Origin: Oscillospiraceae bacterium
GTDB taxonomy: Bacteria > Bacillota > Clostridia > Oscillospirales > Oscillospiraceae
NCBI GenBank assembly: GCA_017465625.1
Contig: JAFTVV010000019.1
Coordinates: forward strand, 1 to 56,364
DNA: 56,364 bases
Direction of reading: 5' to 3'
This document shows positions 8,732-33,794 of the stretch, in pieces. Both the position numbers and the translations under genes were made by a program. The notes beneath the pieces are model-generated. The model had not been told where the DNA came from, made no database searches, and worked only from the letters and a program-made list of their open reading frames with translations. Position 1 is the first letter of the stretch; the number at the start of each line of letters is the position of its first letter.

Positions 8732-11700
8732 ATGAAACACCATGCGATTAAACGACTGATGGTACTGTTTTTAGCACTGGCAATGTTGCTCCCGAATTTC
8801 ACCGGGGCAATCATGACTGCGCAGGCAGAAACAGTCACGGCAGAGCCGAATGTCTATGACATTTACGACCTGACCGGTTCCAAGTCCAATACCATTAAGG
8901 GTACGGACGACACCTGGGACGGTCAGATCCATGCAAATGTCAAAGAGGAGCACAAGGAAAACATTGTGTTCAAGACCAAGCTGACCATGGGCGCGCAGGA
9001 AGTTCGCCTTTCCATCAACGCGCAGGATGGTGCCAGCATTTATGATCCGACCGGCTATTCGGTGTTTATCAACCACAACGGTGGTGCACCCTACATAGCA
9101 ATCAAGCGCAATATGCAGGACCTGGTAGTTGGCAGTGTTGCCGCTGTACAGGGCACCTGGGAGCTGGAGATCGGCCTGCTGGACATTCTGACCGACGGCG
9201 TCAGAACAGGCAAGCACCTCTATGTGAAAAAGGATGGTGCGGTAGTCTGCGAAGTGGATGATACCGATGGCTACCTGACCGGTGATGCCCTGGGCACTAA
9301 GATTGTAGACTTCCACTACGGTGCTGCCATTCAAATGGACACCACATACGCAAACAGCTACGGCACACCCAATGTTTACGACATTTACGACCTGACCGGC
9401 TCTACCGCCAATACCATTAAGGGTACGGACGAGACCTGGGACGGTCAGATCAAAGCTGATGTCAGCGCTGAGCACAAGGAAAACATTGTGTTCAAGACCA
9501 AGCTGACCATGGGCGCGCAGGAAGTTCGCCTTTCCATCAACGCGCTGGATGGTGCCAGCATTTATGATCCGACCGGCTATTCGGTGTTTATCAACCACAA
9601 CGGTGGTGCACCCTATGTGGCCATTAAGCGCAATATGCAGGACCTGGTGGTTGGCAGCGTTGCCTCCGTACAGGGTACCTATGTGCTGGAAATCGGTCTT
9701 TTGGACATCCTGACCGGTGGCACCAGGATCGGTAAGCACCTGTATGTGAAGATGGGTGATGCACTGATCTGTGAGGTGGATGATACCGATGGCTACCTGA
9801 CCGGTGATGCGTTGGGTACCAAGATCATTGATTTCCACTACGGTGCGGCCATCCAAATGGACTCCACCTACGAAAGCAGCTACGGCACACCCTATGTTTA
9901 CGACATTTACGACCTGACCGGCATACCGAACAATACCATTGCCGGCACAGAAACAACCTGGGACGGTCAGATCCGCGCCAATGTGAGCGCAGAGCACAAG
10001 GAAAACTTTGCATTCAAGACGAAGATGACCATGGGCACACAGGAAGTTCGCCTTTCCCTGACAGCCAAGGACGGCGACAGCCACTATGATCCTGTGGGCT
10101 ATGCAGTTTACCTGTACGGCGCATCCAACGAGATTGATATCCGCCGCAACAACACCTCTTTGAAGAAGGTGCGTGTGGCAGGCCTTGCAGGTACCTATGT
10201 GTTCGAAGTAGGCATCGTGGATATTCTGTTTAACGGGCAGAGAATCGGCAAGCATCTGTATGTGAAGATGAACGATGAAGTGGTCTGCGAATACGACGAT
10301 GCAAGCGGCTATCTGACTGGGGATGCTTTGGGCACCAAGATCATCGATTTCCACTACGGTGCGGCCATCCAAATGGATACCACCTACGAAAGCAGCTACG
10401 GCACACCCAATGTTTACGATATTTACGACCTGACCGGCGCTGCAAATAATACCATTACGGGCACAGATGTGAACTGGGACGGTCAGATCCACGCAAGTGT
10501 CAGCGCAGAGCACAAGGAAAACATTGTGTTCAAGACCAAGCTGACCATGGGCGCGCAGGAAGTTCGCCTTTCCCTCAATGCCAAGGACGGCGCCAGCATT
10601 TTTGACCCCTCCGGCTACGCCGTTTACCTGTACGGCGCATCCAACGAGATCGATATCCGCCGCAACAACACCTCTTTGATGAAGGTGAGTGTGGCGGGCG
10701 TTGCCGGCACTTATGTGTTTGAAGTGGGTATTTTGGATATCCTCCTCAACGGCAACCGAATCGGTAAGCACCTGTATGTAAAGATGGACGATACCGTCGT
10801 TTGCGCGTACGACGATGTTGAGGGCTACCTGACCGGCGATGCCCTGGGCACCAAGATCATTGATTTCCACTACGGCGCGGCCATTCAAATGGACACGCTG
10901 TATCCTGTGGACGTGCAGGAGCAGAAAACCTACGACGTGATGGACCTGACCGGCAAAGAGAGCAATATGTTCTACGGTGCTACCGGCAGTGCCATCGGCG
11001 GCTACGATGAATGGGTCGGTATGACCGTCGGCAATGTTGCCGCCGCGGATAAGGAAAACGTGAATTTCAAGGCGCTGGTCACAGTTATTGCAGGCAAGGA
11101 AGTACGTTTCTCTATGGGCGCACTGGACAGTGGCAATGCAGTAGACTATGCAGGCTATGCGCTGAGCATCGGAGATGGACAGTTCAAATTCCTCCGCAAC
11201 GGTCAAAGCATTTTTGACGGCACCGGAGACCTGACCGGCACCTACGTGCTGGAATTTGGTTTCCGGGATGTGATCATGAACGATCAGGTGCTGGGCAAGA
11301 GAATCACCGTTAAGCGGGACGGCGAGGTACTGGGCACTTATGATGACCGGTCCGGCTGTCTCACCGGTGATGCACTGGGTACGAAGATTGCGCTGTTTAC
11401 CTACAGTGACGGCGTAAAAGCAGACACCACCATTCCCAGTGTGGTCAACAGCTACAACCTGACCCTGGGCGGACGCACCGTGATGAACCTGCGTCTGGAT
11501 CCCATCGCTATTGCAAATCCCAACGCGACTGTCACCATCTCCGTGGCAGGCGCAGAAACCGTCTGCAGCCTGCAGGATCTGCCTGCAGATGCCTACGGCT
11601 ATCGGATCATCAGTGTGCCCCTGGCGGCCGCACAGATGAACGATGAGGTGGCGATCACTGTAGAGATGGCAGACGGTGAGACCGTTACCAAGACCTACAG

Positions 11701-14700
11701 TGTGGCAGGCTACAGCAGATACATTTTAGACGGTGAAGGCTATTCTGCTGAGCAGAAGGCAACCGTGGCGGCAATGCTGCACTACGGCGCGGCGGCACAG
11801 CTGTACTTTGTCTACAACAAAGACCATTTGGCAAACGAAGGCTATACCGACGAGGTAACCAATGTCATTGGCAGTACCGCTACACCTGTAGCATCCGGCT
11901 CTGTTGAGGGCGTGCGTTACTACGGTACATCCTTGCTGCTGCAGGACGATATTTCCCTGCGTCACTATCTGAATATCAGCGGTGATGTGAGCAGCTATAG
12001 CTTTACGTTCAACGGCAAGGCAGTAACGCCTGTCAGCGTTTCCGGTATATCCGGCGCAAACTGCTATGTACAGCTGGACGATATTCTGCCCAACGAGCTG
12101 GACAATAAGTGCACCCTGACCGTTTCCAAAGGCGATGCCGCTTGGACACTGGATTACAGCCCCATGAGCTACATTCAGAGAATGAGCACCAAGGACGATA
12201 CGAAGGATCTGGTGCAGCAGCTTTACGATTACCATCTGGCGACCAAGTCTTTGGCAAGCAGCAAGGTGGCAGACCAGGCGATCGTGCTGGACCTGTACGA
12301 GATCTCCGGCAAGGAAGCAGTGACTATTCCCGCAGGCACACCCTATCAGCTGGGTCTGTTGGTGGGTAAGGACGACAGCTTCGTAAAGAAGGAACTGACC
12401 AATAACGTGGCCATCCGCTTTAAGTACACCGGCGGAGAGGGTATGCGTCTGCTCTTCGGTGCGGCTTCTCCGGAAATCAGCAGTACTGCGGGCGCGCTGT
12501 TTATGTCTGTACCCGACAATAACTCCTTCGGTATTGCCAATATCGAGGATAACGGCACCTGGTGTCAGGATGCCGCCGGAAACGATCTGTTCTCCTGGCA
12601 GCCCTGCTTAGGCAGAGATCAGGTTTCCTACATCGAGATCGGCTGCGTCAAGCGCTATACCGATGGGGTCTACACCCACGACCGTTATTATGTGAGAGCT
12701 GCGGCAACTGTGGCGGATTTGGATGCCATGGCACAAGACGGCACATTCTCCGTTTACTACGACACCACAATGAAGGATAACAACGGCCACATTGTGCTTA
12801 TCCGTAGCAGAATGGACAATGGCGGCGATCTGCTGGAGACCACCTGGACGAATGCCCAGATCCAGGCCTATAATGCAAGAGTCAATGAGATTGCCCAGGG
12901 TACTACCTCCGGCAGCTATGATGCACTGGAAAAGAAGTATCCTGCCCAGGTGAGCACTGCCAATACTGCCGCTTCTGTGGCAACAGCAACCAAGCCCTCC
13001 ACCACCCAGGCGACCGGCGGCGATGAGCTGATCCTGTGGGCGGAGTCCTCCACCTCCAAGATCGTGCAGGACGACGACGGCAAGGCTGCAAGCGTGGCAG
13101 CGCAGAAGAACACCCTGTCCATCCAAATGGCAAAGAACGAATATGAGGGTGCACAGCTGATGCTGTTTGGTAAGCGCAATGTAAGCTATGAGGTCTTTGT
13201 AACCGACCTGGTAAACGGCGCCAATACCATCAGCGCCGACAGAATCCGCCTGTATCAGCTGAAGTATCTGACGGTTGACGACAAGGCTGATTCCGACAAC
13301 ACTTATGATACACCCAGCGCCTACGCAGGGGAGAAGCTGCCTGACGGTATGCTGCCCTTTGCCAAGGCTGTAGAGTACGGCGAAAACAGCATTATTGCCG
13401 GCAACAACCAGGCGATCTTTGTGGACGTTTCCACCAAGAGCACCGATGCCGCCGGTACTTACACCGGTACCGTCGTGGTGAAGACCGCAAGCCATACCTA
13501 CACATTGCCCATTAGCGTTGCGGTTGAGAATGTGGTGATGCCGGAAGCTTCCGCACTGGGCACTTATGCACCTTATTTGGGTCGTGACAGCTTCACCTCC
13601 GGTGAACTGAACGGCTCCGATGAAATGGCCGCGCTGTATGCTCAGACTCTGGCGGACTTCAATATGAGCTCCATTATTCCCGCCTCCGACGGCGTGATGA
13701 ACATCGAGAAATTCCTGGTAGAGCTGCGTAGAAGCTATGCTGATGTGACCAACTACCTGCTGCCTGTAGACAATACCGACAGCTACTACACCGTAGACGG
13801 CGTGAACACACTGGTTTACTGCAACTACACGCTGATGAAGGAATATGTGATCGCTTTGGCAGATATGTCCATTGCCGATGGCGTCAATTATTTGGACAAG
13901 GCGTTCTTCTATCCCTCCGACCACGTGGACGAATCCATCACTGAGGAACAGTTCAACCTGGCAAAGGCAACTTATCAGGCATTCTGCCAGATGCTGGACG
14001 ATGCAGATGCCCAGCTGACTGCAAAATATGCCGGCACTTCGATGTATACCCCCGCAATTGCAAATTCTGTGAAGAATGTGCGCTTCCTGCTGACTGTTCC
14101 TGTGGACGATTCCACCGGCAAGGCTTTGAATGTGGGCACACTGCTTACCGAATTTTTGGCGACAGCAGACAGAAAGAACGTGGTGCTTTGTACCACCAAT
14201 TCTGTACTGACAAGAGAAGGCTACGGCGAGGATGTTGCTTCCGCAATGAACGGCGCTTATGCTGACGAGCTGTGGACCTACCTGAGCTTGAAGCCTTACT
14301 ATCCCCACGCCAACTATGCTTTCGATACCCCCGTGGTGGGTCTGCGTACCTTAGGTTGGATCTGCTATCAGGAAAATGTGGATACGCTGATGACCTGGAA
14401 GTCTGTGAACTACCTCTACGGCACAGACGGTCTGTCCTTGGATCGCTGGACCACCTCTTCTGCCGGCACAAGCAGCATCACCCCCGGTGACGGCAATATC
14501 TTCTATCCCGGTGCCAAGTACGGCATTGACGGTCCTTGTCCCAGCCTGCGTGCAATAGCATGGAGAGACGGCGTGGACGACTACAACCTGATGACCGTTG
14601 TGGCAGAAAACGGCGGCTCTGCAAGCAGTCTGACAAGCCTTTACAGCCTGATCACCAAGACCTATACAGAGTCCATCAAGGCTTCCTCCGAAACCGGCAG

Positions 14701-15487
14701 TTGGCTGGGCTCTCTGATCAGCAAAAAGGTCAATGCAACCGTGCCCATCGACGATGATGCCAAGTTTACCGTGGTGCGCAATGCCCTGCTGCAGATGGCT
14801 GCATCCGATGCAAGTGCACACGCTGCGATCATCAGCAATGCCCAGACCGCAGTAAACGGCGTGGTGACTGCTACCGGTACAGTCAATGCTTTGGAGACAC
14901 CCGCTTCTGAAAGCACTGCAAGCATCAGCGGCAACATCTATAGGGACGGCTACTATCAGCTGGCGGACTTTGAGTCTTACACCGAGACCATTCAGAACAA
15001 GTTTAGCGGCAACGGTCAGATGGCTCTGAGCACATTGGCACAAAACGGCAATTACAGCCTGAAGGTGGCAGTACAGCCCGGACAGGAAGGCCAGGCTGTG
15101 TGGATTCCCACGACCAGCAAGTACTTCTCTGCAACCACCAATTTCTCCGGCGCAACCAAGATCACCTTCAAAGTCTATAATGCCCAGCCTGCCGACAGCA
15201 CCGTGCGCTTCTACCTGAATACCTACAATAGATCCGGCGATGTGTACAATGCAGGTACCTATTTCAAGGGCGATGCTGATATCTGGCATGATGACCATGC
15301 AAAGAATACTTCTCTGCGCTTTACCCTGGTACCCGGTTGGAACGAGATTACCATTAATGCAGCGGATATTGGTACGGATTACCTGTCTTATGTTGGTGCA
15401 TTTGTGATCGTCTTCGACAGCGGTGTAGGCTATGATGCCCAGCAGGTGTTCTATCTGGACGATGTCCGTGTTTATATGAGCAAATAA
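8732..15487 (+). CDS. Protein A: giant secreted GH123-like protein with tandem lectin-like repeats
   Basis: The 2251-residue protein has a signal peptide (cut after AQA, about residue 32). Five tandem copies of a ~172-174-residue domain begin at residues 41, 215, 389, 561 and 733 with (V/T)YD(I/V)xDLTG. Residues ~906-1180 are two unrecognised beta-rich segments. A divergent sixth repeat starts near 1184. A Thr/Ala linker is followed by a GH123-type region from ~1431 (ILWAESSTSKI) to ~2025. Its DHVDE stretch places the likely catalytic Asp1733-Glu1734 pair, and the DUF4091 signature GDGNIFYPG is present. A CBM-like jelly roll ends the protein (~2075-2251). There is no LPXTG and no membrane anchor. 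GH123 enzymes are beta-N-acetylgalactosaminidases; the substrate here is unknown. Confidence 0.9.
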   Translation: MKHHAIKRLMVLFLALAMLLPNFTGAIMTAQAETVTAEPNVYDIYDLTGSKSNTIKGTDDTWDGQIHANVKEEHKENIVFKTKLTMGAQEVRLSINAQDGASIYDPTGYSVFINHNGGAPYIAIKRNMQDLVVGSVAAVQGTWELEIGLLDILTDGVRTGKHLYVKKDGAVVCEVDDTDGYLTGDALGTKIVDFHYGAAIQMDTTYANSYGTPNVYDIYDLTGSTANTIKGTDETWDGQIKADVSAEHKENIVFKTKLTMGAQEVRLSINALDGASIYDPTGYSVFINHNGGAPYVAIKRNMQDLVVGSVASVQGTYVLEIGLLDILTGGTRIGKHLYVKMGDALICEVDDTDGYLTGDALGTKIIDFHYGAAIQMDSTYESSYGTPYVYDIYDLTGIPNNTIAGTETTWDGQIRANVSAEHKENFAFKTKMTMGTQEVRLSLTAKDGDSHYDPVGYAVYLYGASNEIDIRRNNTSLKKVRVAGLAGTYVFEVGIVDILFNGQRIGKHLYVKMNDEVVCEYDDASGYLTGDALGTKIIDFHYGAAIQMDTTYESSYGTPNVYDIYDLTGAANNTITGTDVNWDGQIHASVSAEHKENIVFKTKLTMGAQEVRLSLNAKDGASIFDPSGYAVYLYGASNEIDIRRNNTSLMKVSVAGVAGTYVFEVGILDILLNGNRIGKHLYVKMDDTVVCAYDDVEGYLTGDALGTKIIDFHYGAAIQMDTLYPVDVQEQKTYDVMDLTGKESNMFYGATGSAIGGYDEWVGMTVGNVAAADKENVNFKALVTVIAGKEVRFSMGALDSGNAVDYAGYALSIGDGQFKFLRNGQSIFDGTGDLTGTYVLEFGFRDVIMNDQVLGKRITVKRDGEVLGTYDDRSGCLTGDALGTKIALFTYSDGVKADTTIPSVVNSYNLTLGGRTVMNLRLDPIAIANPNATVTISVAGAETVCSLQDLPADAYGYRIISVPLAAAQMNDEVAITVEMADGETVTKTYSVAGYSRYILDGEGYSAEQKATVAAMLHYGAAAQLYFVYNKDHLANEGYTDEVTNVIGSTATPVASGSVEGVRYYGTSLLLQDDISLRHYLNISGDVSSYSFTFNGKAVTPVSVSGISGANCYVQLDDILPNELDNKCTLTVSKGDAAWTLDYSPMSYIQRMSTKDDTKDLVQQLYDYHLATKSLASSKVADQAIVLDLYEISGKEAVTIPAGTPYQLGLLVGKDDSFVKKELTNNVAIRFKYTGGEGMRLLFGAASPEISSTAGALFMSVPDNNSFGIANIEDNGTWCQDAAGNDLFSWQPCLGRDQVSYIEIGCVKRYTDGVYTHDRYYVRAAATVADLDAMAQDGTFSVYYDTTMKDNNGHIVLIRSRMDNGGDLLETTWTNAQIQAYNARVNEIAQGTTSGSYDALEKKYPAQVSTANTAASVATATKPSTTQATGGDELILWAESSTSKIVQDDDGKAASVAAQKNTLSIQMAKNEYEGAQLMLFGKRNVSYEVFVTDLVNGANTISADRIRLYQLKYLTVDDKADSDNTYDTPSAYAGEKLPDGMLPFAKAVEYGENSIIAGNNQAIFVDVSTKSTDAAGTYTGTVVVKTASHTYTLPISVAVENVVMPEASALGTYAPYLGRDSFTSGELNGSDEMAALYAQTLADFNMSSIIPASDGVMNIEKFLVELRRSYADVTNYLLPVDNTDSYYTVDGVNTLVYCNYTLMKEYVIALADMSIADGVNYLDKAFFYPSDHVDESITEEQFNLAKATYQAFCQMLDDADAQLTAKYAGTSMYTPAIANSVKNVRFLLTVPVDDSTGKALNVGTLLTEFLATADRKNVVLCTTNSVLTREGYGEDVASAMNGAYADELWTYLSLKPYYPHANYAFDTPVVGLRTLGWICYQENVDTLMTWKSVNYLYGTDGLSLDRWTTSSAGTSSITPGDGNIFYPGAKYGIDGPCPSLRAIAWRDGVDDYNLMTVVAENGGSASSLTSLYSLITKTYTESIKASSETGSWLGSLISKKVNATVPIDDDAKFTVVRNALLQMAASDASAHAAIISNAQTAVNGVVTATGTVNALETPASESTASISGNIYRDGYYQLADFESYTETIQNKFSGNGQMALSTLAQNGNYSLKVAVQPGQEGQAVWIPTTSKYFSATTNFSGATKITFKVYNAQPADSTVRFYLNTYNRSGDVYNAGTYFKGDADIWHDDHAKNTSLRFTLVPGWNEITINAADIGTDYLSYVGAFVIVFDSGVGYDAQQVFYLDDVRVYMSK
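8852..11440 (+). repeat. Five tandem coding repeats in protein A
   Basis: Units start at 8852, 9374, 9896, 10412 and about 10928, with a period of 516-522 bp. Units 1-4 are very close at DNA level. A 66-bp block starting GAGCACAAGGAAAACATT is identical at 8948-9013, 9470-9535 and 10508-10573. Unit 5 is diverged. The pattern indicates recent duplication or gene conversion. Confidence 0.9.
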
Positions 15488-15595: not shown

Positions 15596-16447
15596 TTAGA
15601 AGTGTCCGTTGACGCCTTTTCCCACAAGCTCCGGATACTGCGTTTTATTGTAATGCCTGTCCAGCTGATTGAAGCTGAACAGCATCCACCCTAGTAGACC
15701 CAAGGTGAAGACCATAATGGCGGGAAGCGTGCCGGTCAGGTGCAGCTGGGTGGAAGGAATCATCCACACCACAAGGCACAAACCAAAGTTTAAAAGCATT
15801 GCGCCAAAGGCCTTCAAAGGATTTTTCAGGTAGATGTAGAGGGCAATTTTCAGATTTCCCCAAAAGCTGTTGGTGTAGATGGCAATGACCACGATGCAAT
15901 AGGCAGTGACCGGCGCCACCAAGAAGGCCAAAAGCCCCATTAGAATGCCTTGGATCCATACGCTGTCTGCCTGAGAGACTATTGCGCTGTACCAGCCGAT
16001 CTTGGCAAGTGCGAAGAAGATGCCAAAGAGCAGGCCCACAGGGAAGATCTGCTTCCAATTCTGTCGGAAGCCCACGGAAAAATCGTGAAAAACCGTTACG
16101 TTTTCGCCCCAGGCCAGCTGCCGCAGAACACGGACTACTCCGGACAGCCCCAAAAACAGCAGTGCCAAAGCAGGTGCGCTGAACACGGCACAGTAAGTGT
16201 TCAGGGGCGCCAGTATGGCGGGCATTTCGTGAGGCGAAAAGGATGGGTCTTCTGTTACGGCATAAAAATAGCTGTCCTCATAAAGCGCGATCAGAAACAG
16301 GGGCAGGGCGAAAATCAGCAGGATCAGTGCCAGCAGAAGAAGCTTGCGCCACTGTAACTTCACCACGTCAAAAAACACTGCCTTTCGGGTTTGAGGGAGC
16401 ATTGCGCGCTCAAAATCCTTGGATGCTCTTTTAGTTTTCCGTGCCAT
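15596..16447 (-). CDS. YesL/DUF624-like membrane protein
   Basis: The 283-residue protein has about six hydrophobic segments (from residue ~36 to ~260). The stretch VFHDFSVGFRQNWKQIFPVGLL resembles the DUF624/YesL core. YesL-type genes often sit beside carbohydrate ABC transporters; the molecular role is unknown. ATG 16447 with GGAGGAAGATT is chosen over an upstream in-frame start, because it fits the ribosome binding site and gives a 17-bp overlap with the preceding gene. It is last in a four-gene overlapping operon. The family assignment is moderate. Confidence 0.75.
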   Translation of the reverse strand: MARKTKRASKDFERAMLPQTRKAVFFDVVKLQWRKLLLLALILLIFALPLFLIALYEDSYFYAVTEDPSFSPHEMPAILAPLNTYCAVFSAPALALLFLGLSGVVRVLRQLAWGENVTVFHDFSVGFRQNWKQIFPVGLLFGIFFALAKIGWYSAIVSQADSVWIQGILMGLLAFLVAPVTAYCIVVIAIYTNSFWGNLKIALYIYLKNPLKAFGAMLLNFGLCLVVWMIPSTQLHLTGTLPAIMVFTLGLLGWMLFSFNQLDRHYNKTQYPELVGKGVNGHF

Positions 16448-18235: not shown

Positions 18236-18269
18236 TTGTAAACTCCAATTCTTGGCGAAATTCCATCCA

Positions 18270-18298
18270 TTCATAACAACTGAAAGGTATTCCGTCAA
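18270..18298 (-). promoter_or_regulatory. Promoter of the minus-strand ABC/YesL operon
   Basis: On the minus strand TTGACG (18298-18293) and TATGAA (18275-18270) are separated by 17 bp, 35 bp before the ATPase start codon. The -35 is 5 of 6 and the -10 is 4 of 6. Confidence 0.6.
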
Positions 18299-24600: not shown

Positions 24601-27109
24601 GGACCACAGCGACGATAACGGCGAGGTGATCTGGGGCGTACTGATCGGTAACGTGGATGATGCCCATAAGGGCAATGTGGCGCTGAAGACAAAGGTTACG
24701 ATGAGCAGCAGCCAGCAGCAGAACCTGATTATCGGTCTGGGTCTGAATGGCCACTGGCCTGTAGGCAGCGGCCACGGCTATAAGGTTGAGCTGAACGGCA
24801 ACCCGGATAACAAAACCGACAGCCTGTTCGTTTACAAGAATTTGGAGGGCGAAGAGCCTGTATGCATCTACAGTATGGAGCAGGGCTTCGACTTTAACAG
24901 CAGCTTCCAGCTGGAGGTCGGCGTGGTAGACCTGACCGACGAGGCTAACGACGTTGTGGCACGGCGTGTCTATGTGCTGATCAACGGTCAGGAGCTGATG
25001 CATTTCGATGATACCAGAAATGTGATTTCCGGCAGCAATATGGGTACTGTGGTGGCAGCTTACGCCAGCAGCGGCAGTGTGACACTGGGTACCTGCGTCA
25101 ACGGCATCCCCAGCACCGGTGTGAAGACCTACGACATTTTTGATTTGCTGTCGAAGGCTACTTTGAAGCTGAACCGCACCGATGCAGGCGGCGAGGTGAT
25201 CTGGAGCAATGAGATCGGCACGATTACCGATACCAACAATATGAACTATGCCTTGCTGGCAGATCTGGATATCAGCAAGATTGACCGTAGCCAGCTGCAG
25301 GAGCTGATTGTGGGTCTGTGCAAGGAAAACGACCTGTTCGACAAGGTGGGTTACCGGCTGAGCCTGTACTTCTACCCCAACGGTACAACCAGCGTGGTTT
25401 TGCGTGACAGCAATACCGATGAGGTTTTGGCCAATGTGGATACAGTGCTGGCTGAGCATTCTGAGGTAGAGATCGGCATTACCGACTTCTTCGGCAGCAA
25501 CAAGAAGTTGCTGGGCAAGAAGATTTACCTGAAGGCAGACGGCAAGGAAGTGCTGGCCTATCTGGATGAGGATGCAAGCCGGGTTCGGGGCAATTACCTG
25601 TGCGCTTATACCACAACGCCCATTACCCTGGCCACGAAGTATGACTACTTCACCATCCCGGTGACCTATGTGGTCAACGGAGAAACTGTGGAAAGCAGTG
25701 CTTACGTCACCACCGGTACAGATGTGGTTGCGGGACGTCCCTCTTTGATCGACGTGGCCTTGGGCAATAAGACCGAATTCACCTCTGTGAAGATGGAGCA
25801 GGTATTGCTGAACGGTCAGCCTATCAAGGCTGTCAGCGAGAAAAAGGGCGTGTATGTATTTGTACTGGAGAACCCCTCTGCCAATGACCAACTGGAAGTG
25901 CAGATCCAGGTACGCAACCTGACCGTGGATGAGGCAGACGTGTATGACCTGTATGATCTGACCGGCAAGAAGGAGATTATCCTGCATGCCAACAGCGCGA
26001 ACCAGATCGGTACTCTGTTTGCAGACGGCAAGGAGGGAATCCTGAACCGTGCGATCCGGTTTGCCTATTACATCCCCAAGACCGGCGGCGGTCTGCGTCT
26101 GGGTTACGGCTCCGACACCAGCGATATCTGGTCAAGAGTTGGTACCCATATCGAAATTTGGTGTGGCTTTGCCACCATTTCCCACGGCTTCCACGTCAGC
26201 GCGCTGAGCTCCGGCAACACGGATGTATTCCAGCCGGATTCCTGGAGCATTGTGGAAGTGGGTATTGTCAAGTGCTATGAAGAAGGTGTTTACAAGTATG
26301 ACCGCTGGTATGTGAAGGCTGGCAGCACATTGGATACAATGGAACTGATCACCTATTATGACAGCACCCAGCGTTATGACAGCAGCCTGAATATTATGGT
26401 TCGTACCCCGGATACCGGCGACGATTTTGTCTTGACATCCACTCTGGAAATCGGACAGGTAACCGATGAATCCGAGGAAACAGCCAAAAATGAAGCAACA
26501 GTGGCATTCAAGCCTTTGTTCCGCAAGGGCGAGACTGTGAAGATCGTGGTATACCCCAAAGCAGGCAAGGCTTTGGAAAGCCTGACAGTGAACGGCCAAA
26601 CGGTGGAAACTGTGCTGACCTCCGATGGCGGCTACGTATTCACACTGGAAAATGCCCAGGAAGATGTGCATTTTAGCTACGTTTTGGCAGATGACGACAC
26701 GATGTACAATGTCACAGCAGATGCAGGTGATCACTTCACCGTTGCCCTGGATTCGGCATCTGTGATTGCCGGCGGCTCTGTGACAGTGCAGATCAAAGTG
26801 GACGGCGGTTATGTATTAAACAGCCTGACCGTCAACGGGGCAGACTTCCTGCCCATGGCAAGCTACGATAAGACAACTCTGACCTATACTGTGACTATCC
26901 GCGGTATCCGGGAGGATAAGCACATCGTGGTACAGGCTGAAAAGCTTTCTACCGATGGCCCTGTGGCAGCGGTCGTGGCAGAGCAAAATGAAAGCAAAAC
27001 AACAAACCGGCCTCTTGTGATTGTGATTGCAGCTGTTGCTGTGGCAGTCTTGGGCGGTGTGGTTGCAATTGCTGTGATCAGAGTAAGGAAGAAGGAACGC
27101 AAGCAATGA
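21635..27109 (+). CDS. Protein B: membrane-anchored surface protein of eight lectin-like repeats
   Basis: The 1824-residue protein starts at GTG 21635 (GGGAGGAAGATACAC). A signal peptide ends near residue 32 (DVHA). Repeat units begin at about residues 45, 219, 413, 610, 790, 975, 1165 and 1436. Units 1-3 closely match protein A. Units 2/3 and 3/4 are joined by Pro/Glu/Thr linkers (EPTEP type). Unit 8 matches the divergent sixth unit of protein A. Two InlB-type/Big-like beta domains (~1610-1780) precede a C-terminal membrane helix (~1793-1815) and a basic tail (RVRKKERKQ). There is no LPXTG. It has no catalytic domain and probably binds glycan at the membrane for the ABC system, whose first permease overlaps its stop by 4 bp. 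Confidence 0.88.
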   Translation: MKRILQKRILAFVLVLTMLLPNVMGLLTDVHAVTTRSNTYGEANVYDISDLTGSNTNIVKGTDETWDGQVLGNVSEEHKENMIFKTKLTMGKQQIRLAINAKEGTSIYDPPGYAVYINDNNGAPYIAIKRNQKDLVVGSVPTVDGTYELEIGLQDILTDGVRTGKHIYVKMDGETVCEADDTAGYLTGEALGTGIVDFHYGAAIQMDTTCTDEYGMATVYDIYDLTGSAANTVKGTDETWDGQVLGEVSVEHKENIVFKTKLTMGKQQVRLALNAKDGTSIYDPPGYAVYINDNNGAPYIAIKRNQQDLVVGSVPAVDGTYELEIGIVDILESGVRTGKHLYVKMDDVVVCECDDISGYLTGDALGTKIVDFHYGAAIQMDTTKEIEPTEPTEPETTEPKPTEPPKTVAEATVYDIYDLTGSAANTISGTDAGAWDGQIHKSINPEHKENMAFKTELTMGAQEVRLSLNAKDGASVWDAPGYAVYLYGADNRVQIRRNNSCLHEATVEGLAGTYVFEAGIVDILQDGNRNGKHLYVKINDAVVCEYDDMNGYLTGDALGTKIVDFHYGAAIQMNTTKEIIPPEPTEPEPTDPEPTEPEATVPQITADATVYDLYALKGVAQLTVAGQLQGVWGTTLGHVSTSHKENIAFATKLTVDEAQTIMLGLGLGDMSQAVQVNSGYVLEIVNKTGDGEMDTVKIHRAGKQIHIQDTAADFHGEHSFEYGIVDILSEDTAIGKRIYVKLDGENVFHFDDTANFLTADKLGTKVDIYVSGNDLLLGSAKNYAAGQAHIYDLYDMQGREQLTLEGRTSNPDNWGTTLGNVLPEHKENMAFKTTVTMDEAQTVMLGLGLMDHSMAVQLNSGYVLEIVTKTGEGEADTVKIHRAGMQIYSEDQSVDFNGEYELQFGVVDLYDPDANNEVVGKRIFVKVNGEEILHYDDTISALSSDQLGTKVDVYVSGIDLPMASYRNYQAGNATVYNLYDLTFRKTLAVDHSDDNGEVIWGVLIGNVDDAHKGNVALKTKVTMSSSQQQNLIIGLGLNGHWPVGSGHGYKVELNGNPDNKTDSLFVYKNLEGEEPVCIYSMEQGFDFNSSFQLEVGVVDLTDEANDVVARRVYVLINGQELMHFDDTRNVISGSNMGTVVAAYASSGSVTLGTCVNGIPSTGVKTYDIFDLLSKATLKLNRTDAGGEVIWSNEIGTITDTNNMNYALLADLDISKIDRSQLQELIVGLCKENDLFDKVGYRLSLYFYPNGTTSVVLRDSNTDEVLANVDTVLAEHSEVEIGITDFFGSNKKLLGKKIYLKADGKEVLAYLDEDASRVRGNYLCAYTTTPITLATKYDYFTIPVTYVVNGETVESSAYVTTGTDVVAGRPSLIDVALGNKTEFTSVKMEQVLLNGQPIKAVSEKKGVYVFVLENPSANDQLEVQIQVRNLTVDEADVYDLYDLTGKKEIILHANSANQIGTLFADGKEGILNRAIRFAYYIPKTGGGLRLGYGSDTSDIWSRVGTHIEIWCGFATISHGFHVSALSSGNTDVFQPDSWSIVEVGIVKCYEEGVYKYDRWYVKAGSTLDTMELITYYDSTQRYDSSLNIMVRTPDTGDDFVLTSTLEIGQVTDESEETAKNEATVAFKPLFRKGETVKIVVYPKAGKALESLTVNGQTVETVLTSDGGYVFTLENAQEDVHFSYVLADDDTMYNVTADAGDHFTVALDSASVIAGGSVTVQIKVDGGYVLNSLTVNGADFLPMASYDKTTLTYTVTIRGIREDKHIVVQAEKLSTDGPVAAVVAEQNESKTTNRPLVIVIAAVAVAVLGGVVAIAVIRVRKKERKQ
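21767..26435 (+). repeat. Eight coding repeats in protein B
   Basis: Units begin at 21767, 22289, 22871, 23462, 24002, 24557, 25127 and 25940. Each opens with (V/I)Y(D/N)xxDL or a close variant, then a HKEN(I/M) motif and a GKHLYVKM-like strand. Units 1-3 share blocks with protein A; units 4-8 are more diverged. The end coordinate is approximate. Confidence 0.8.
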
Positions 27110-28011
27110 GAGTTTTAAGCGGAAGAAAATCAAAAAATACCCGCCGTGAGAAGTGGTTCATTGTTGCTTTTTGCCTACCGGCTATCTTGCACCTGGTTAT
27201 TTTCTGGGCAGGTATGCAGTGGAACAGCCTTGTGATGACCTTTACCAATGTGCTTACCGGTGAGGTGGGCCTGGATAACTTCAGATGGGCCGTGGACGCG
27301 CTCACAATGGCTACCGGCGTGGATATGCCGCTGGCCTTTGCAAACACGATGATATTCTTCGTGATGAATGCACTGTTCATTCCGCTGTGTATGTTTTTCT
27401 CCTACCTGCTGTTCCGCAAGGTGTTGGGACACAAGTTTATCCGCCTGGCGCTGTATTTACCCGGCGCCATCGGCGGCATTATGATGGCACTGCTGTATGA
27501 GAACTTTATGGCCTCCGATGGCTGGCTGTTCCATCAGATCCAAAAGCTTACCGGATCATCCGACCCCTATTCCATGATGACCCAAAACGGTCTTCTGTAC
27601 GTTTTGATCTTCGACGTTTTGGTGGGCGTGGGTGCAAACCTGCTGACCTGGACCAGTATCGTCGGACGTATTCCTACAGATTTGATCGAGTACGGCAAAT
27701 TGGAGGGCATCACCCCCGGCAGAGAATTTTTCACCGTGGTACTGCCACTGGTATGGCCCAACTTTGTCAATATGCTGTCCATTCAGATCATTGGAATGTT
27801 TGGTGCCACCGGCTCGGTTTTGGTACTGACCCAAGGCAAATACGGCACCCAAACCCTGAGCTACTGGATGTACAGCGTGGTGCTCACCGGCGATGTGAAC
27901 GAATACAACCACGCCGCCGCACTGGGTATCATCTTTACCCTCTTGACTGTGCCGCTGTATGTGATCTTCCGTAAGGTTATGAAGCGATTTGGAACGGAGG
28001 TGGAGTACTGA
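27106..28011 (+). CDS. Carbohydrate ABC transporter permease 1 (CUT1, MalF/UgpA-like)
   Basis: The 301-residue protein has six predicted membrane helices. The permease coupling loop (EYGKLEGITPGREFFTVVLPLVWP, split here as EYGKLEGITPG then EFFTVVLPLVWP) is at residues ~195-222. It overlaps protein B by four bases (ATGA) and the second permease by one base, so the three are translationally coupled. It probably moves oligosaccharide across the membrane with its partner and the binding protein at 28947. No ATPase is encoded in this operon. Confidence 0.95.
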   Translation: MRVLSGRKSKNTRREKWFIVAFCLPAILHLVIFWAGMQWNSLVMTFTNVLTGEVGLDNFRWAVDALTMATGVDMPLAFANTMIFFVMNALFIPLCMFFSYLLFRKVLGHKFIRLALYLPGAIGGIMMALLYENFMASDGWLFHQIQKLTGSSDPYSMMTQNGLLYVLIFDVLVGVGANLLTWTSIVGRIPTDLIEYGKLEGITPGREFFTVVLPLVWPNFVNMLSIQIIGMFGATGSVLVLTQGKYGTQTLSYWMYSVVLTGDVNEYNHAAALGIIFTLLTVPLYVIFRKVMKRFGTEVEY

Positions 28012-28916
28012 TGTCAAAACTCAAAACACGGCGTAAGGAGCTCCGTTCCAACGGCTTTTGGGTCAACTTCTTAGGTGTGATTCCCCTGGTGTGGGGCAGT
28101 GTGCTGGTGTTTATGGCGCTTTGGGGTCTGAACGTGGCACTGGGCGATCCGATGACCTATTTGGACAAGGTTTTAAGTCACGATCTGTTCGTGGGCAAAT
28201 ATACCTTTCAAAACTTTATTGACGTTTCCGAGAAGTTTATGCAACCTGTCAGTGGCAGTAACGGTGTGATGCGCTGGATCTCCTACCCGGAGATGCTGCT
28301 GAACTCTTTGGTTTACAGCATCGGCTGTACCGCCCCCCGCCTGGTGGTGACCACTTTGTTTTCCTATGTCACCGCCCGTTATGAATTCCGTGGCAGAGGA
28401 TTTTTGTATGCCTTTATTATGGTGCAGATGATGATCCCCACCTACGGTCAGGATGCGGCAAAGTACAAGATGCTCTCCGAGATGAATATGGTGGACAACT
28501 GGTTTTACTACGTCAGTCAGGGCGCAGGACACGGTGGCTTATTCCTGATTATGTACGCCTACTTTAAGGGCCTGCCCAATGCCTATGCGGAAGCAGCGAA
28601 GATTGACGGCGCAGGACCGTTCTCCGTATTCAAAAACATTATGCTTCCCTGTGCGGTACCGATCATCACAGCCCAGGGCATTATGAACTTTATCTTCTAC
28701 TGGAACGATTACGCAACGGTGATGGTTTACCAGAAGACCCATCCCACGCTTTCCAGTACTCTTTATGTGCTGCGGTCGTTTATGTTCTATATCGGCCTGC
28801 AGACCCCCACATACTTTGCGGGAATCTTCCTTTCGATCATACCGGTTGTGGTACTATATATGATTTTCAGCGGTAAGCTGATGAACAATGTTTCTGCCGG
28901 TGGCATCAAGGGCTAA
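28011..28916 (+). CDS. Carbohydrate ABC transporter permease 2 (CUT1, MalG-like)
   Basis: The 301-residue protein has six membrane helices. The EAA loop AYAEAAKIDGAGPF is at about residues 187-200. An extended periplasmic loop lies between helices 1 and 2. Its start codon shares a base with the stop of permease 1 (TGATG). It is the heteromeric partner of permease 1. The substrate is inferred from context to be an oligosaccharide trimmed at the surface by proteins A, B and the lipoproteins. Confidence 0.95.
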   Translation: MSKLKTRRKELRSNGFWVNFLGVIPLVWGSVLVFMALWGLNVALGDPMTYLDKVLSHDLFVGKYTFQNFIDVSEKFMQPVSGSNGVMRWISYPEMLLNSLVYSIGCTAPRLVVTTLFSYVTARYEFRGRGFLYAFIMVQMMIPTYGQDAAKYKMLSEMNMVDNWFYYVSQGAGHGGLFLIMYAYFKGLPNAYAEAAKIDGAGPFSVFKNIMLPCAVPIITAQGIMNFIFYWNDYATVMVYQKTHPTLSSTLYVLRSFMFYIGLQTPTYFAGIFLSIIPVVVLYMIFSGKLMNNVSAGGIKG

Positions 28917-28946
28917 AGTAACAAGGATTATGAAAGGTGATTGATT

Positions 28947-30584
28947 ATGAAAATGAAAAGAATCATTGCATTACTTGTTTGCATTGTGCTGGTTATGGGC
29001 ACGGTGCTGACCGGCTGCGGCGGCGCCGGCGGCAGTCAGCAGTTGGTGGATAACACGGTTGAAGATACCACCAATCTGAACATTATGTATTACGCAATGG
29101 GCTATGGCACCCAGTGGATGGAAGCGATGGTCAAGGCATTTAAGGAAAAGAATCCCGGTGTGAACGTGAAGCTGGAGATCGTCAGAACTCCCGGCGTGAT
29201 CGAAAACAGCCTGCGTAACCCCAATTATAATGACGTAGACCTGTACTTCAGTAAGTCCGAGGGCTACGGCACACTCAATTCCTTCGCCAAGATGTACGAG
29301 GGCGGTCAGGCAATGCGGGATCTGACCCAGCTGTACAATACCACCATTCCCGGCGAGGATACCACCATTGCCGAAAAGCTGTTCCCCGGCCTGAAAAAGA
29401 TGTGCCAGGTGGATGGCCGTGACACAGAGGATCCTGCAGACGACACCTATTACTGGATGCCCTATGTTGCCGGTAACCACAGTCTGTTCTACAATGAGGA
29501 CGTGATCAACAACGCCCTGGGTGAGGGCAACTGGGAGCTGCCCAGAACCACCGATGAGCTGATCGCGCTTTGTGAAAGACTGAAGGAGAAGGAATGTGTA
29601 TTCTTCGTCCCCGGTATGGTGGACTATTGGTCTACTTCTTTGTATCAGATTTGGTGGGCACAGTACGAGGGCTTCGAGAACTACACCAAATTCTACGAGG
29701 GCATCGGCTATAACAGCAGTATGAACCGTGAGGAGAAGAACTCCAACAAGATCTTCAATCAGCCCGGTCGTCTGGCAGCGGCGCAGACCTGCTATGATAT
29801 TCTCAATTACGATGCCGGTTATGCTATTCAAAACGCCGCGGAAATCGGTGTAAACCGTCTCAACGAATATCAGACCCGCTTTATGATCAGCAAATATAAC
29901 TACGCATTTTACGTATCCGGCGACTGGCTGATGCAGGAGATTCAGAACAACACCACTGTGGAGCTGGATTCCACCATCAAGATGATGAAAGCCCCTGTTG
30001 CCAGCAACATTTTGGAGGCAACCAACAGCTACTCCGCAGGCAATGAAAAGCGCCTGCCCAATATCACCTCCGATGAGATGCTGTCTCAGGTGGTTGCATA
30101 CGTAGACGGCGAAGGGGAACTGCCTGAAGGCGTAACCGAGGAAGAAGTGGAATACATCCGCAGTGCACGCAATATGGTGGCCACTCTGGCACCCACCCAT
30201 ACTGTCTTTGCACCGGTCTACAGCAACGCCTCCACCTTGGCAGACCAGTTCCTGCTGTTTATGGCATCCGATGAGGGCATTCAGATCTTCAAGGACAACT
30301 GTGCCGGCGGCTTCTCTCCCTTCCAGTATGATTACGACTATGAGAAGCTCCACGAAACAGAGAAGTCCATCTTCAACTGCACCAAGGATGCGGTTTATGT
30401 AGGCTACTACCGTGTAGGCGATATCTTCAGCAAGGGCAACGTACAGCCCTACAACCTGAACACCTACTTTGTGGATATGATGACCGCCAAAAACGGACAA
30501 ACTCCAGAAGAATACAATAATGTCTTCCTGAAAGAGTATTCTGATGACCGCTGGAGCACCTATCTGAACAGACTTTTCGAGTAA
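28947..30584 (+). CDS. Extracellular solute-binding lipoprotein, family 1
   Basis: The 545-residue protein has a lipoprotein signal (LTGCGG, Cys about residue 24). The binding-protein fold includes WMEAMVKAFKEKNPGVNVKLEIV near residue 50. It is larger than typical CUT1 binding proteins (about 420-450), which suits a branched or long oligosaccharide. ATG 28947 (AAAGGTG, then ATTGATT) is chosen over an in-frame TTG at 28941. It follows the permeases by 30 bp and precedes the GH123-like lipoprotein by 13 bp. Confidence 0.93.
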   Translation: MKMKRIIALLVCIVLVMGTVLTGCGGAGGSQQLVDNTVEDTTNLNIMYYAMGYGTQWMEAMVKAFKEKNPGVNVKLEIVRTPGVIENSLRNPNYNDVDLYFSKSEGYGTLNSFAKMYEGGQAMRDLTQLYNTTIPGEDTTIAEKLFPGLKKMCQVDGRDTEDPADDTYYWMPYVAGNHSLFYNEDVINNALGEGNWELPRTTDELIALCERLKEKECVFFVPGMVDYWSTSLYQIWWAQYEGFENYTKFYEGIGYNSSMNREEKNSNKIFNQPGRLAAAQTCYDILNYDAGYAIQNAAEIGVNRLNEYQTRFMISKYNYAFYVSGDWLMQEIQNNTTVELDSTIKMMKAPVASNILEATNSYSAGNEKRLPNITSDEMLSQVVAYVDGEGELPEGVTEEEVEYIRSARNMVATLAPTHTVFAPVYSNASTLADQFLLFMASDEGIQIFKDNCAGGFSPFQYDYDYEKLHETEKSIFNCTKDAVYVGYYRVGDIFSKGNVQPYNLNTYFVDMMTAKNGQTPEEYNNVFLKEYSDDRWSTYLNRLFE

Positions 30585-30597: not shown

Positions 30598-33060
30598 ATG
30601 ATCCTGAAAAGACTACTTGCACTTTCCCTGGCGCTTGTGCTGTTGGTCTCGATGGCAGGTTGTGGCGATGAATCCGGCACTCAGGAGAAAATTGAGGGTG
30701 AAGATGTTGTCCTGTGGGGCGAATCAGCTACCGCCAAAATTGTCCTGGATGATGACGGCAAGGCTGCAGAAGCAGCTGCCGACAAAAATATCATCACCGT
30801 TTCTATGGCAAGAAACGAGGAGGAGGGCGCACAGCTGATGCTGTTCGCCAAGCAGGATATTCCGTATTATACGGTGACCGTATCCGATCTGGTGTGCGGT
30901 GAAGAAAAGATCCTGGCCGACGATATTGCTGTGTATATGCTGAAGTATCAGTCCATTGACGACAGCACCGGCAAAACCTACCCCGATTACTATGGCCATA
31001 AGCTGCCCGATCCTATGCTGCCCTTCGAAACAGCGGTGGCATACGGCGAGAATCTGGTGACATCCGGAAACAACCAGGCGGTATTTCTGGATGTTTCCAC
31101 CACAAAGGACACACCTGCCGGTCTGTATAAAGGCACGGTTACCGTAAAGACCGACCTGCAGACCTACAGCGTACCTATGGAGGTCACAGTTTACGATGTG
31201 ACACTGCCGGATACGTCAGCACTGAAGACCTATGCCCCCTATTTTGGCAGAGAGGCATTTGAATCTGCTGAGCTGGACGGCTCTGATGAAATGGCGATCC
31301 TGTACACCGAGGTTCTGATGGACTACAATATGAGCTCCATCGTACCCGGCACAGATGAGGTTATGGATCTGCCTACCTATCTGCAGCGGCTGAAGGAATA
31401 CTACAACTATCCCGGCTTTAACACCTATCGGATTGAATTTGACACCAATCCCGGCTGGTACGACGGCGTGGAAGTGCAGTTTAATGCAGGCCTGCTGCGG
31501 GAGTACATCGTTGCCATAGCAGAAATGTCTGTGACAGACAAGGTGAATTATCTGTCCAAGGCATTCTACTATCCCTATGACCACGTGGACGAGCCGCAGA
31601 ACGATGCACAGTTCGAAATCGCCCGAGCCTCTCTTGCCAGCTATTTGAAAGTACTGGCCGATGCGGATGCCATCCTCCAGGCGGAATATGCCGGCACAGA
31701 AGATTATGCCTATTATAACGGCGTAGTTTCCGAAACACTGCTGAATATTCCCTATATGCTCACCTGTAATATCTCCGGTGCTACCCTGAGAAGTAACGGG
31801 CTGGAGGAAGCAACCATCTGTATTCTCAATGACTTCTTCAACAATGCATCGGATCTTGCCCTGTTGAAAGAGGGACGTGAGGATAAGGAACTGTGGACTT
31901 ATGTGGCTTGTACGCCTTTCTATCCCCACGCGAACTATGCCTTTGACAGCCCGGCTGTAGGCACCCGTACACTGGGCTGGATGTGCAACAGCTACGACAT
32001 TGGCCTGCTAATGGCATGGAAAACCGTCAACTATAACTATGGCCCCAGTGGCGATGTGACACCAAACCGATGGGAAACCTCGTCCCCCGGCCCCAGTGGT
32101 ATTACTCCCGGTGACGGCAATTTGTTCTACCCCGGTGCGACCTACGGCCTAAAAGGACCTTGTCCCGGCCTGCGTGCCATGGCTTGGCGTGACGGTGTAC
32201 AGGACTATGACCTGATCGAGGCATTTAAGGAAATCTACTATGCCAACGGTCTGAATCCTGAAACAGCGTTACAGAGATTGTACAACCGGATGTTTACCGG
32301 CACCATTCCCACCACAGATGCTGACGTATTTAACAATGCGCGCAACGAATTGTTCCAGATGGTCGCAGACCTGAAGCAGCCTACGGCAGTTCTGTATAAG
32401 ACCCAGGATGTCTTTATGAACCAGGGTACAGTAGAGTTCGTTTGCGTGGACGAAAATGCTGTAGTATCTTACGGCGGCAGTACTTTGACACCGGATGAAG
32501 ACGGAATTTATACCATCGCTTTGGACCTGACTCAGGAAAAGAGCTGCAGCTTCAGCGTGTCCAACCAGGGTGTGTCTAAGGATTATACCTGCACGCTGGT
32601 GACCGGTAATTTGAAGGCAGAGAGCTTTGAAACGGGCACAACGGCAGACCAGCTGGTCTGTATGGGTGGAGATACCCTGGAAATCAGCAGCGATTATGCC
32701 TTGGATGGAGAAAAATCCGTCCGCGCCGTACTGAATCAGGGACAAACGGATGTTACGCCTTATGTGGCAGTACTGAAGGATTCTGCGATTGTAGGCGGAA
32801 CTTTCGCAACCGTCAAGAATATCAGCTTCTATGTGTATAACCCTGGTGTGGAGGAAATCAGTGCAACTGTTTCCTTCTATGATAATCAGGTGCATACTGT
32901 GGGGACGGTAAAGCTGCTGCCCGGTCAATGGACGAAGGTAGATGCGCCTGTACCCGGCAATGTCTCTAATCTGGATATGTTGGGCGAGCTGGATTTGGTA
33001 TTTGAATTAGGAAAAGCAGTGGAAGTTTACATTGACGGCTTTACTGTTCAGGAGGGTTAA
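30598..33060 (+). CDS. GH123/DUF4091-like lipoprotein
   Basis: The 820-residue protein has a lipobox (MAGC, Cys21). A GH123-like N-terminal beta domain begins at VVLWGESATAKI (~residue 37). A barrel follows with DHVDEP, giving a likely Asp331-Glu332 pair, and the DUF4091 signature GDGNLFYPGATYGLKGPCPGLRA split around GLKG near ~503-525. Residues ~680-820 form a jelly-roll module. The catalytic region is closely similar to residues 1431-2025 of protein A. It is probably a cell-surface exo-beta-hexosaminidase-like enzyme; the substrate is not determined. The start has AAGGAGAACGAT. Confidence 0.88.
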   Translation: MILKRLLALSLALVLLVSMAGCGDESGTQEKIEGEDVVLWGESATAKIVLDDDGKAAEAAADKNIITVSMARNEEEGAQLMLFAKQDIPYYTVTVSDLVCGEEKILADDIAVYMLKYQSIDDSTGKTYPDYYGHKLPDPMLPFETAVAYGENLVTSGNNQAVFLDVSTTKDTPAGLYKGTVTVKTDLQTYSVPMEVTVYDVTLPDTSALKTYAPYFGREAFESAELDGSDEMAILYTEVLMDYNMSSIVPGTDEVMDLPTYLQRLKEYYNYPGFNTYRIEFDTNPGWYDGVEVQFNAGLLREYIVAIAEMSVTDKVNYLSKAFYYPYDHVDEPQNDAQFEIARASLASYLKVLADADAILQAEYAGTEDYAYYNGVVSETLLNIPYMLTCNISGATLRSNGLEEATICILNDFFNNASDLALLKEGREDKELWTYVACTPFYPHANYAFDSPAVGTRTLGWMCNSYDIGLLMAWKTVNYNYGPSGDVTPNRWETSSPGPSGITPGDGNLFYPGATYGLKGPCPGLRAMAWRDGVQDYDLIEAFKEIYYANGLNPETALQRLYNRMFTGTIPTTDADVFNNARNELFQMVADLKQPTAVLYKTQDVFMNQGTVEFVCVDENAVVSYGGSTLTPDEDGIYTIALDLTQEKSCSFSVSNQGVSKDYTCTLVTGNLKAESFETGTTADQLVCMGGDTLEISSDYALDGEKSVRAVLNQGQTDVTPYVAVLKDSAIVGGTFATVKNISFYVYNPGVEEISATVSFYDNQVHTVGTVKLLPGQWTKVDAPVPGNVSNLDMLGELDLVFELGKAVEVYIDGFTVQEG

Positions 33061-33062: not shown

Positions 33063-33794
33063 ATGAGAAACAGAATACTTGCAGCTTTTCTGTTGGTGAG
33101 TCTTATGCTGTGCTTTGCCGGTTGCCAAAACCGGCAAAGCCAGACTGCCGGCAATCAGGAAACCAACCCAAATGCCGTCCGGCAAGAAAAACACAGAAGC
33201 AATGTGATGGAATATGACGAGGAAATCGGTAAAGATTACTACTTGATTGGTGATTTTGAGGACTATTTTGAATGCAGCCAGGTCAAGTATACCGGTGGCA
33301 AAATGGCACAGATCAAAAAGTCGGAAAATCCTGACCTGGTGACCTATGGTGAACAGAGCCTGCAGGTGATTGTGCCTGCCGGAGAGTCCGATGTGTCCCT
33401 GCGTATGGCTACGGACACTGCATTCTTCAACGCAACCACCGATTTTTCCAACCTGAGCAAAATATCCTTTGATGTGTATAACGATCAGGATGAGAGTCGT
33501 TCGGTTCGTTTCTACCTGAACCGGTTTATGCGTACCTCCACGCAAGATGGTACATGGAACTACGCATGGGAGGATATTTGGCACGATGACAATCAGTACA
33601 GCACATCCTTCCGATTTGACTTAAACCCCAACGGCTGGACACACATTGAGATCACTGCCCAGGAATTTGCCAACAAGCTTCAGCCGGATCTTTCTCAGGT
33701 AGATGGATTCTATGTGGAATTCGAAGATGGCCGTTTGTACGATACCGACCAGATTTATTATTTAGATAATGTCCGTGTATACATAGAGGAGTAA
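33063..33794 (+). CDS. CBM-like lipoprotein matching the C-terminus of protein A
   Basis: The 243-residue protein has a lipobox (FAGC, Cys20) and a polar linker. A single beta-jelly-roll module spans ~60-243. Shared blocks with the protein A C-terminus include SVRFYLN (TVRFYLN in A), DIWHDD, and the closing YLDNVRVY (YLDDVRVY in A). No catalytic motif. It probably binds glycan beside the GH123-like lipoprotein, whose stop is two bases upstream. The ribosome site GGAGG lies within the previous gene's end. Confidence 0.85.
   Translation: MRNRILAAFLLVSLMLCFAGCQNRQSQTAGNQETNPNAVRQEKHRSNVMEYDEEIGKDYYLIGDFEDYFECSQVKYTGGKMAQIKKSENPDLVTYGEQSLQVIVPAGESDVSLRMATDTAFFNATTDFSNLSKISFDVYNDQDESRSVRFYLNRFMRTSTQDGTWNYAWEDIWHDDNQYSTSFRFDLNPNGWTHIEITAQEFANKLQPDLSQVDGFYVEFEDGRLYDTDQIYYLDNVRVYIEE

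Follow-up and report, generated by a model that had tools for sequence, protein, structure and literature searches.

Gram-positive polysaccharide utilization loci (gpPULs), as defined in the available part of the study describing them, combine a degrading enzyme, a carbohydrate transport system and a regulator, and end where three adjacent unrelated genes occur (PMC5320581). We analysed a 56,364-base window, the entire contig C19 of an Oscillospiraceae genome (G000; 1.70 Mb, 80% complete), in which an operon (operon 1) encodes a giant anchored repeat protein (B), two ATP-binding cassette (ABC) permeases (T1 and T2), a solute-binding lipoprotein (S), a lipoprotein of the glycoside hydrolase (GH) 123 type (G) and a lipoprotein with a domain resembling a carbohydrate-binding module (CBM; C), while a giant protein encoded nearby (A) carries counterparts of B, G and C in one chain (Table 1). 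The locus is like the gpPULs of Roseburia and Eubacterium rectale, as these appear in the same available text, in having enzymes and an ABC transporter together and, depending on where its boundary is drawn, an AraC-type regulator (PMC5320581). Its GH78, GH20C, GH2 and GH123 products match Pfam above cut-off, and its transport genes match SBP_bac_1 and BPD_transp_1, T1 just under the cut-off. Features that set it apart from those gpPULs are the membrane-anchored repeat giant at the head of the transporter genes, the lipoprotein with nothing but a CBM behind the enzyme, and the secreted protein alongside in which these modules are fused. The AraC gene lies beyond A and four opposite-strand genes, and the three-gene rule would part A and the regulator from the operon. 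We propose, at a probability of roughly 60%, that the locus is a Gram-positive glycan-import system existing in a tethered and a released version, the latter being A, made from copied and fused genes of operon 1. Among titles on GH123/DUF4091, gpPULs, fusion logic, anchored versus secreted enzymes and galacto-N-biose transport, in a search covering few subscription journals, none described this arrangement.

A first-pass annotation of this DNA had reported that A resembles B, G and C, and pairwise alignment bears this out. The repeats of A and B share 53–54% identity over about 950–984 residues (A residues 7–920), A and G share 39% over 804–807 residues (A residues 1424–2184; E 1e-162 to 6e-162), and A and C share 40% over 188 residues (A residues 2074–2251; E 5e-36) or, in a second alignment, 35% over 252 residues (E 4e-37). 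Rather than dropping to background outside short motifs, the similarity thus covers 188–984 residues, and the motifs named in that annotation are all present in the proteins concerned: DHVDE in A and G, DIWHDD in A and C, and YLD-VRVY as FYLDDVRVY/YYLDNVRVY in the pair A/C. The order inside A (repeats, D, GH123, CBM) is that of B, G and C in the operon minus the transporter genes, and all four proteins are encoded by intact frames at the coordinates of Table 1 (2251, 1824, 820 and 243 residues for A, B, G and C). The described make-up of A, with repeats, a GH123-type region and a CBM-like end, was correct as far as it went, but two modules had been overlooked: D (A residues 1181–1371), which matches B residues 1432–1602 (E 5e-17) and which we regard as a distant member of the repeat family because its profile also finds the repeats, and M (A residues 903–1171), which is not in B, G or C. 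The end of A is like C, as described, but G also has a separate C-terminal CBM-like domain of its own, unlike the end of A. A is near the operon, yet outside it, with the four opposite-strand genes intervening before the GH78 gene.

What distinguishes A from its counterparts is membrane attachment. According to a simple hydropathy and lipobox-pattern script, B carries a C-terminal hydrophobic helix (residues 1789–1819), in agreement with the anchor previously ascribed to it, and lipobox patterns occur in S, G and C, whereas A has a signal peptide only, with neither a C-terminal helix nor a lipobox pattern; its hydrophobic stretches at residues 482–500 and 654–672 fall within repeats. The regions aligned with A begin at residue 28 of G and residue 59 of C, and in B the final match stops at residue 1602, so the membrane-attaching parts of B, G and C are among the parts absent from A. 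Across the clade, all eight B-type proteins have a C-terminal hydrophobic stretch, and a lipobox pattern is present in 8/8 G and 7/7 C proteins. Having neither the helix of B nor the lipobox ends of G and C, A looks like a fused, untethered copy of the neighbouring operon that could work away from the membrane. This fits the earlier description of A as a released or stand-alone version, and A is probably released from the cell, although M might retain it.

The descent of A points to the same operon. In a 28-row tree, the GH123 domain of A from three genomes is sister to G of operon 1 (support 100/98.7), and both are sister to G of a paralogous operon (operon 2), located on contig C42 of the same genome and consisting of B2, T1, T2, S2, G2, C2, a stand-alone M protein and a secreted giant, X2. 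In a 12-row tree, the CBM of A groups with C of operon 1 (80/99.8), with the bootstrap of 80 lying under the usual mark and the program warning of long branches, and the repeats of A and B are intermixed in a single FastTree tree. These trees and the intermixed repeats argue for descent of A from this operon, most likely by copying and fusion of its genes after operon 1 split from its paralogue; tree placement shows the source copy of the GH123 domain and, less firmly, that of the CBM. The ratio of nonsynonymous to synonymous substitution rates (dN/dS) is 0.10 for the GH123 and CBM domains of A compared with genome G029, 0.23 for the whole of A compared with genome G068, and 0.09–0.10 for G, and the low values show that A is maintained by purifying selection. 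Recent gene conversion between the repeats of A and B in the window was also considered and is out, the best DNA identity being 78% over 494 bases. Short-word BLAST for a regulatory motif common to the upstream regions of A and of the two operons gave chance-level matches only between different promoters, with the exception of a weak 17-base match between the A promoter of G068 and the operon-2 promoter (E 0.002).

Gene order further ties these components together. The order B–T1–T2–S–G occurs in all eight loci found of this G clade, and C comes next in seven of them, the contig of the eighth (L076) ending inside G; the split genes, far from never occurring together, are thus kept as a block. 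Both operons are retained in G029 and G068, operon-2-like blocks occur in two more genomes (L071 and L076), and A adjoins the operon in the three genomes that have A. Because of this conserved order and the construction of A from the operon's own gene copies, a functional linkage of B, the transporter, S, G, C and A is well supported. In L071, the B-like protein (1268–6421) reads as two open frames, owing to an assembly error or a broken gene. Such proteins are rare: of 136 genomes surveyed in the genus, at least four have a GH123 domain of this kind (E ≤ 1e-40), and of 119 relatives, three have the repeats and the C-type domains (E ≤ 1e-10), these three also having A and both operons. The GH123 surveys scored at most eight candidates per genome, and matches per genome are lower bounds; many genomes are incomplete, so absences are soft. 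At least 25 GH123 places were counted, 24 within fetched stretches or the window and the 25th at G070:C23:380. From a further 21 loci, 11 were annotated, six (L069, L070, L072–L075) are the same DNA as G029/G068, and L085 and L087–L089 were left out. Among 13 loci outside the clade of the two operons (L055–L060, L062–L068), eight have an S-like gene and five both permeases within the fetched DNA.

From the fusion, the first-pass annotation had gone on to a surface complex of the three products around the transporter. The linkage half of that argument stands, given the conserved gene order and the make-up of A, and A compared with B, G and C follows the Rosetta stone pattern of domains fused in one chain and separate elsewhere. 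We consider it improbable, in contrast, that the fusion in A reveals a stable physical assembly of B, G and C around the ABC transporter, even though their genes keep their order, all three are membrane-attached by sequence and the domain order of A mirrors the operon. Fused domain pairs less than 30 residues apart are near-certain contacts according to the available excerpt of one study (PMC529437), but the linkers of A measure about 75 residues between D and GH123 and about 40 between GH123 and CBM. Promiscuous domains are a known confounder of fusion logic, as stated in the accessible part of another study (PMC2248599), and the fusion counts for little here because the modules shuffle freely. 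Tethering on one membrane would itself account for co-location and gene order without contacts.

A similar pairing of tethered and untethered forms was found in a second lineage, represented by G070. This genome holds six GH123 giants without a lipobox pattern on five contigs (1261–3128 residues as fetched, one cut by a contig end), with the GH123 domain near the N-terminus. Within the stretches fetched, four of the five contigs also hold a short GH123 gene, which has a lipobox pattern on three of the four; at L068, L140 and L144 the giant lies immediately upstream of the short GH123 gene and S, and the short gene of L144 has no lipobox pattern. The C-terminal modules of these giants are alike, at 29–41%, to those of the lipoprotein giant of a transporter operon, and also occur in other giants. 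A 31-row quick tree was built after removing the long-branched L057 and L060, four duplicate copies of genes already included and all matches shorter than 450 residues. The fused GH123 forms occupy two separate positions in it, and the fewest state changes are two. The alternative that the fused forms are one old family, forming a single clade, is rejected in this quick tree (approximately unbiased test, p-AU 6e-57; the program warned of long branches), which argues that a split and a secreted fused version came to stand side by side at least twice. One protein of this lineage, the 3128-residue secreted product of L140 (2243–11629), joins the GH123 domain to a calcineurin-like phosphoesterase.

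We tentatively raise, as a speculation with the odds well against it, a broader generalization: the GH123 import operons of the genus would often be doubled by an untethered giant with the same modules; in one lineage B, G and C would have collapsed into one frame with loss of exactly the three membrane attachments; and M, which four genomes each carry in some 20 or more secreted proteins and which also exists as a small secreted protein by itself, would represent a novel module for non-covalent surface retention or assembly, setting how far the released enzymes travel.

Comparison of the window with G068 suggests that the locus is a recombination mosaic, with recent recombination between species. 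DNA identity is 94.6% over window positions 8846–20202 (A to GH78) and about 70% past 20217, before the first repeats of B; nothing aligns as DNA over 21559–24004, which holds those first repeats, and at the protein level S is 98.7% and T2 100% identical. The B protein of G068 is without A-like first repeats while its A retains them, which rules out an obligation on A and B to keep matching repeats. Plain module shuffling among surface proteins, with A and the operon having no coordinated function, would agree with these tracts of very different identity, with the 20 scored places of M in this genome and with the G070 modules common to the lipoprotein and secreted giants reappearing in further giants, but it is hardly a likely account, given that the GH123 and CBM domains of A stem from this very operon, that A lies beside the operon wherever A was found, that A is under purifying selection and that the fused/split GH123 pairing arose twice. 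Comparably far-fetched is the idea that the shared repeats are docking modules through which A is recruited to the cell by the like repeats of B instead of being released: in both operons an anchored giant and a neighbouring secreted giant do share an N-terminal repeat class (REP in B and A; another class, R2, with which B2 starts, in B2 and X2), but a common ligand gives the same pattern, B of G068 is without A-like first repeats and no known family matches the repeats below E 0.01.

Returning to the tethered and released versions of one import system, we examined what the enzymes and the binding protein say about its substrate. G scores 42.0 bits against GH123_cat and the domain of A, scanned alone, 36.9 bits (cut-off 23.1), the family not being listed in a scan of the whole of A. 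The DE motif, which aligns with the DE of 8k2h, is kept in all three A and all eight G proteins. The best PDB match of G is 8k2f, labelled oligosaccharide-releasing, which from its label we take to be NgaCa of GH123 Group 1. The proteins here share with Group 1 the matches to GH123_cat (DUF4091) and to the N-terminal domain as well as the DE motif. In the accessible part of the Group 1 study, NgaCa acted solely on the p-nitrophenyl (pNP) glycoside of galactosyl-N-acetylgalactosamine, Gal-b1-3-GalNAc-pNP (PMC11087588). The present proteins differ from Group 1 in their distant sequence, their lipoprotein or multi-module giant context and, in G, the additional C-terminal CBM-like domain; a GalNAc-type activity of G and A would be consistent with the family match. 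For S and all six relatives scanned, TIGR03850 (CPR_0540) is the top NCBIfam model, followed by NgcE, although far below the curated cut-offs (relatives 54–117 bits). We take both to be models of amino-sugar-type binders. In PDB profile searches, the best match of S is 9h0n (ligand not stated). Amino sugars as substrate are thus pointed to by the GH20C, GH123 and S family matches, and rhamnose or uronic acid polymers by the GH78 and GH28-like genes.

Taken together, the tethered version would consist of B, displaying a series of glycan-binding-type repeats on the membrane; of lipoprotein C, adding a CBM-like domain; and of lipoprotein G, cutting N-acetylhexosamine (HexNAc)-containing chains into oligosaccharides at the surface. 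Uptake of these oligosaccharides would fall to S and T1/T2, and the cytoplasmic GH20C, GH78, GH2 and other enzymes would finish them; the GH20C, GH78 and GH2 products have no signal peptides. No ATPase gene for the transporter was seen in the operon, and we assume that the ATPase serving T1/T2 is shared from elsewhere. In the released version, A, which carries the same repeats, D, GH123 and C-type domain in one chain, would cut further away.

Several observations weigh against this proposal. The D module of A does not group firmly with that of B (support 0.235), and the loss of A-like first repeats from B in G068 breaks the match between the two giants there. The operon-2-type genomes G182 and G183 (L071, L076) have no fused A. 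In the next relatives, L055 and L056, which have a long G and a CBM-bearing neighbour, the order is S–G–CBM with no B or permeases within 15 kb, and S, T1 and T2 are all absent from nine more distant GH123 loci examined (L077–L084, L086); the complete block thus characterizes this clade. Module M could hold A at the surface. With regard to substrate, S reaches 108 bits against TIGR03850, under the curated cut-off of 299, and also matches a xylo-oligosaccharide binder (3zkk, E 1e-6); a plant or bacterial polysaccharide would account equally well for the GH78 and GH28-like genes. Within the available part of the Group 1 report, NgaCa left GA1 and Gb5 oligosaccharides uncut, and a second Group 1 enzyme, NgaMg, was inactive when tested (PMC11087588).

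If the proposal is right, the locus offers a clean case of one set of modules that occurs both anchored next to an importer and joined in a single chain for release. The origin of the fused chain can be traced to the neighbouring operon, and a comparable pairing arose independently in a related lineage. It makes testable how gut Firmicutes partition the digestion of glycans between their own surface and the environment, and hence how far products are shared with neighbours. It also exposes REP and M as module families without a convincing match in Pfam or solved structures (for M, also in NCBIfam).

The REP repeats (46 members) match no Pfam family better than E 0.016, and a PDB profile search gave nothing below E 0.26; the whole of A gives a sub-cut-off match to the GH127 middle domain in one repeat (E 3e-4). 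They may have a concanavalin- or lectin-like fold, which is an impression, and the repeats of A and B may bind glycans. The C family gives a weak profile match to the endoglucanase H and mannanase carbohydrate-binding domains 1v0a, 2lro and 1wky (E 0.0025–0.005; endoglucanase H 0.0025), so marginal that no binding residues or ligand are transferable, and C itself matches no Pfam family at E 0.1.

Module M (about 270 residues) has 20 scored copies in this genome, including that in A, 16 of them in frames longer than 1000 residues, and at least 20–21 copies in each of G016, G029 and G068. Neither Pfam nor NCBIfam gave a single-member match better than E 0.001, and a PDB profile search gave none at all. 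The fetched loci encode 25 M proteins, three of them cut at an end; 18 carry M at one end, lipobox-like patterns occur in three, and a C-terminal helix or LPXTG in none. A small secreted protein consisting of little but M follows C2 in operon 2 in all three genomes (L011 5689–6639, − strand; L049 1424–2383, − strand; L054 13465–14415, + strand). These features make M a candidate new surface-retention module.

The R2 repeat (about 95 residues) is common to B2, X2 and another giant (L011 231–5669 and 13463–18904; L012 1452–7109), the third of these combining R2 with M, a metallophosphatase and a tyrosine-phosphatase-like domain. PDB searches gave no useful match for the C-terminal half of X2 and nothing below E 0.4 for R2, whose chance-level matches include three oxidative-enzyme chains (GH61/lytic polysaccharide monooxygenase, LPMO; E 1.2–1.3). 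Whole B2 scores 48.5 bits against Pfam AA9 (cut-off 27.8), with no single stretch passing, which may reflect a slight similarity to LPMOs or an artefact of the repeats.

Table 1 Features of the locus within the 56,364-base window.
Feature	Coordinates	Strand	Remarks
AraC-family regulator	7456..8343	-	Divergent from A; Pfam HTH_18 5e-17, AraC_binding
Protein A	8732..15487	+	Signal peptide, REP x4 + REP5, M, D, GH123-type domain, C-terminal CBM-like domain
Module M within A	11438..12244	+	No single-member family match better than E 0.001; no PDB profile match
GH123-type domain of A	13001..14881	+	DE motif (DHVDE)
C-terminal CBM-like domain of A	14924..15481	+	Groups with C
Four genes (one ABC ATPase) between A and operon	15596..18298	-	Kept in G029 and G068
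GH78 rhamnosidase-like enzyme, no signal peptide	18500..20698	+	Pfam 1.8e-77
Small lipoprotein-like gene	20717..21592	+	Kept in G029 and G068
Protein B	21635..27109	+	Eight REP-family modules including D; C-terminal membrane helix
ABC permease T1	27106..28011	+	BPD_transp_1 26.1 bits, just under cut-off 26.4; UgpA-like 1.4e-10
ABC permease T2	28011..28916	+	BPD_transp_1 39.5 bits, above cut-off
Solute-binding lipoprotein S	28941..30584	+	SBP_bac_1; nearest NCBIfam TIGR03850, NgcE (TIGR03851), both below cut-off
Lipoprotein G	30598..33060	+	GH123-type enzyme (DHVDEP) and own C-terminal CBM-like domain
Lipoprotein C	33063..33794	+	CBM-like domain alone
GH20C beta-hexosaminidase-like enzyme, no signal peptide	33795..35576	+	Glyco_H_20C_C 4e-50; PDB 5a69 (GH20C) E 3e-79
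GH28-like, fucosidase/GHL6-like, beta-lactamase-fold and GH2 genes	35601..42697	+	No signal peptides

There are no tRNA genes in the window. The AraC gene has a counterpart in G068 (L053) that is 75% identical and likewise divergent from A. The product of the small lipoprotein-like gene, which lies within the operon and is kept in G029 and G068, shows short YD-like repeats by eye.

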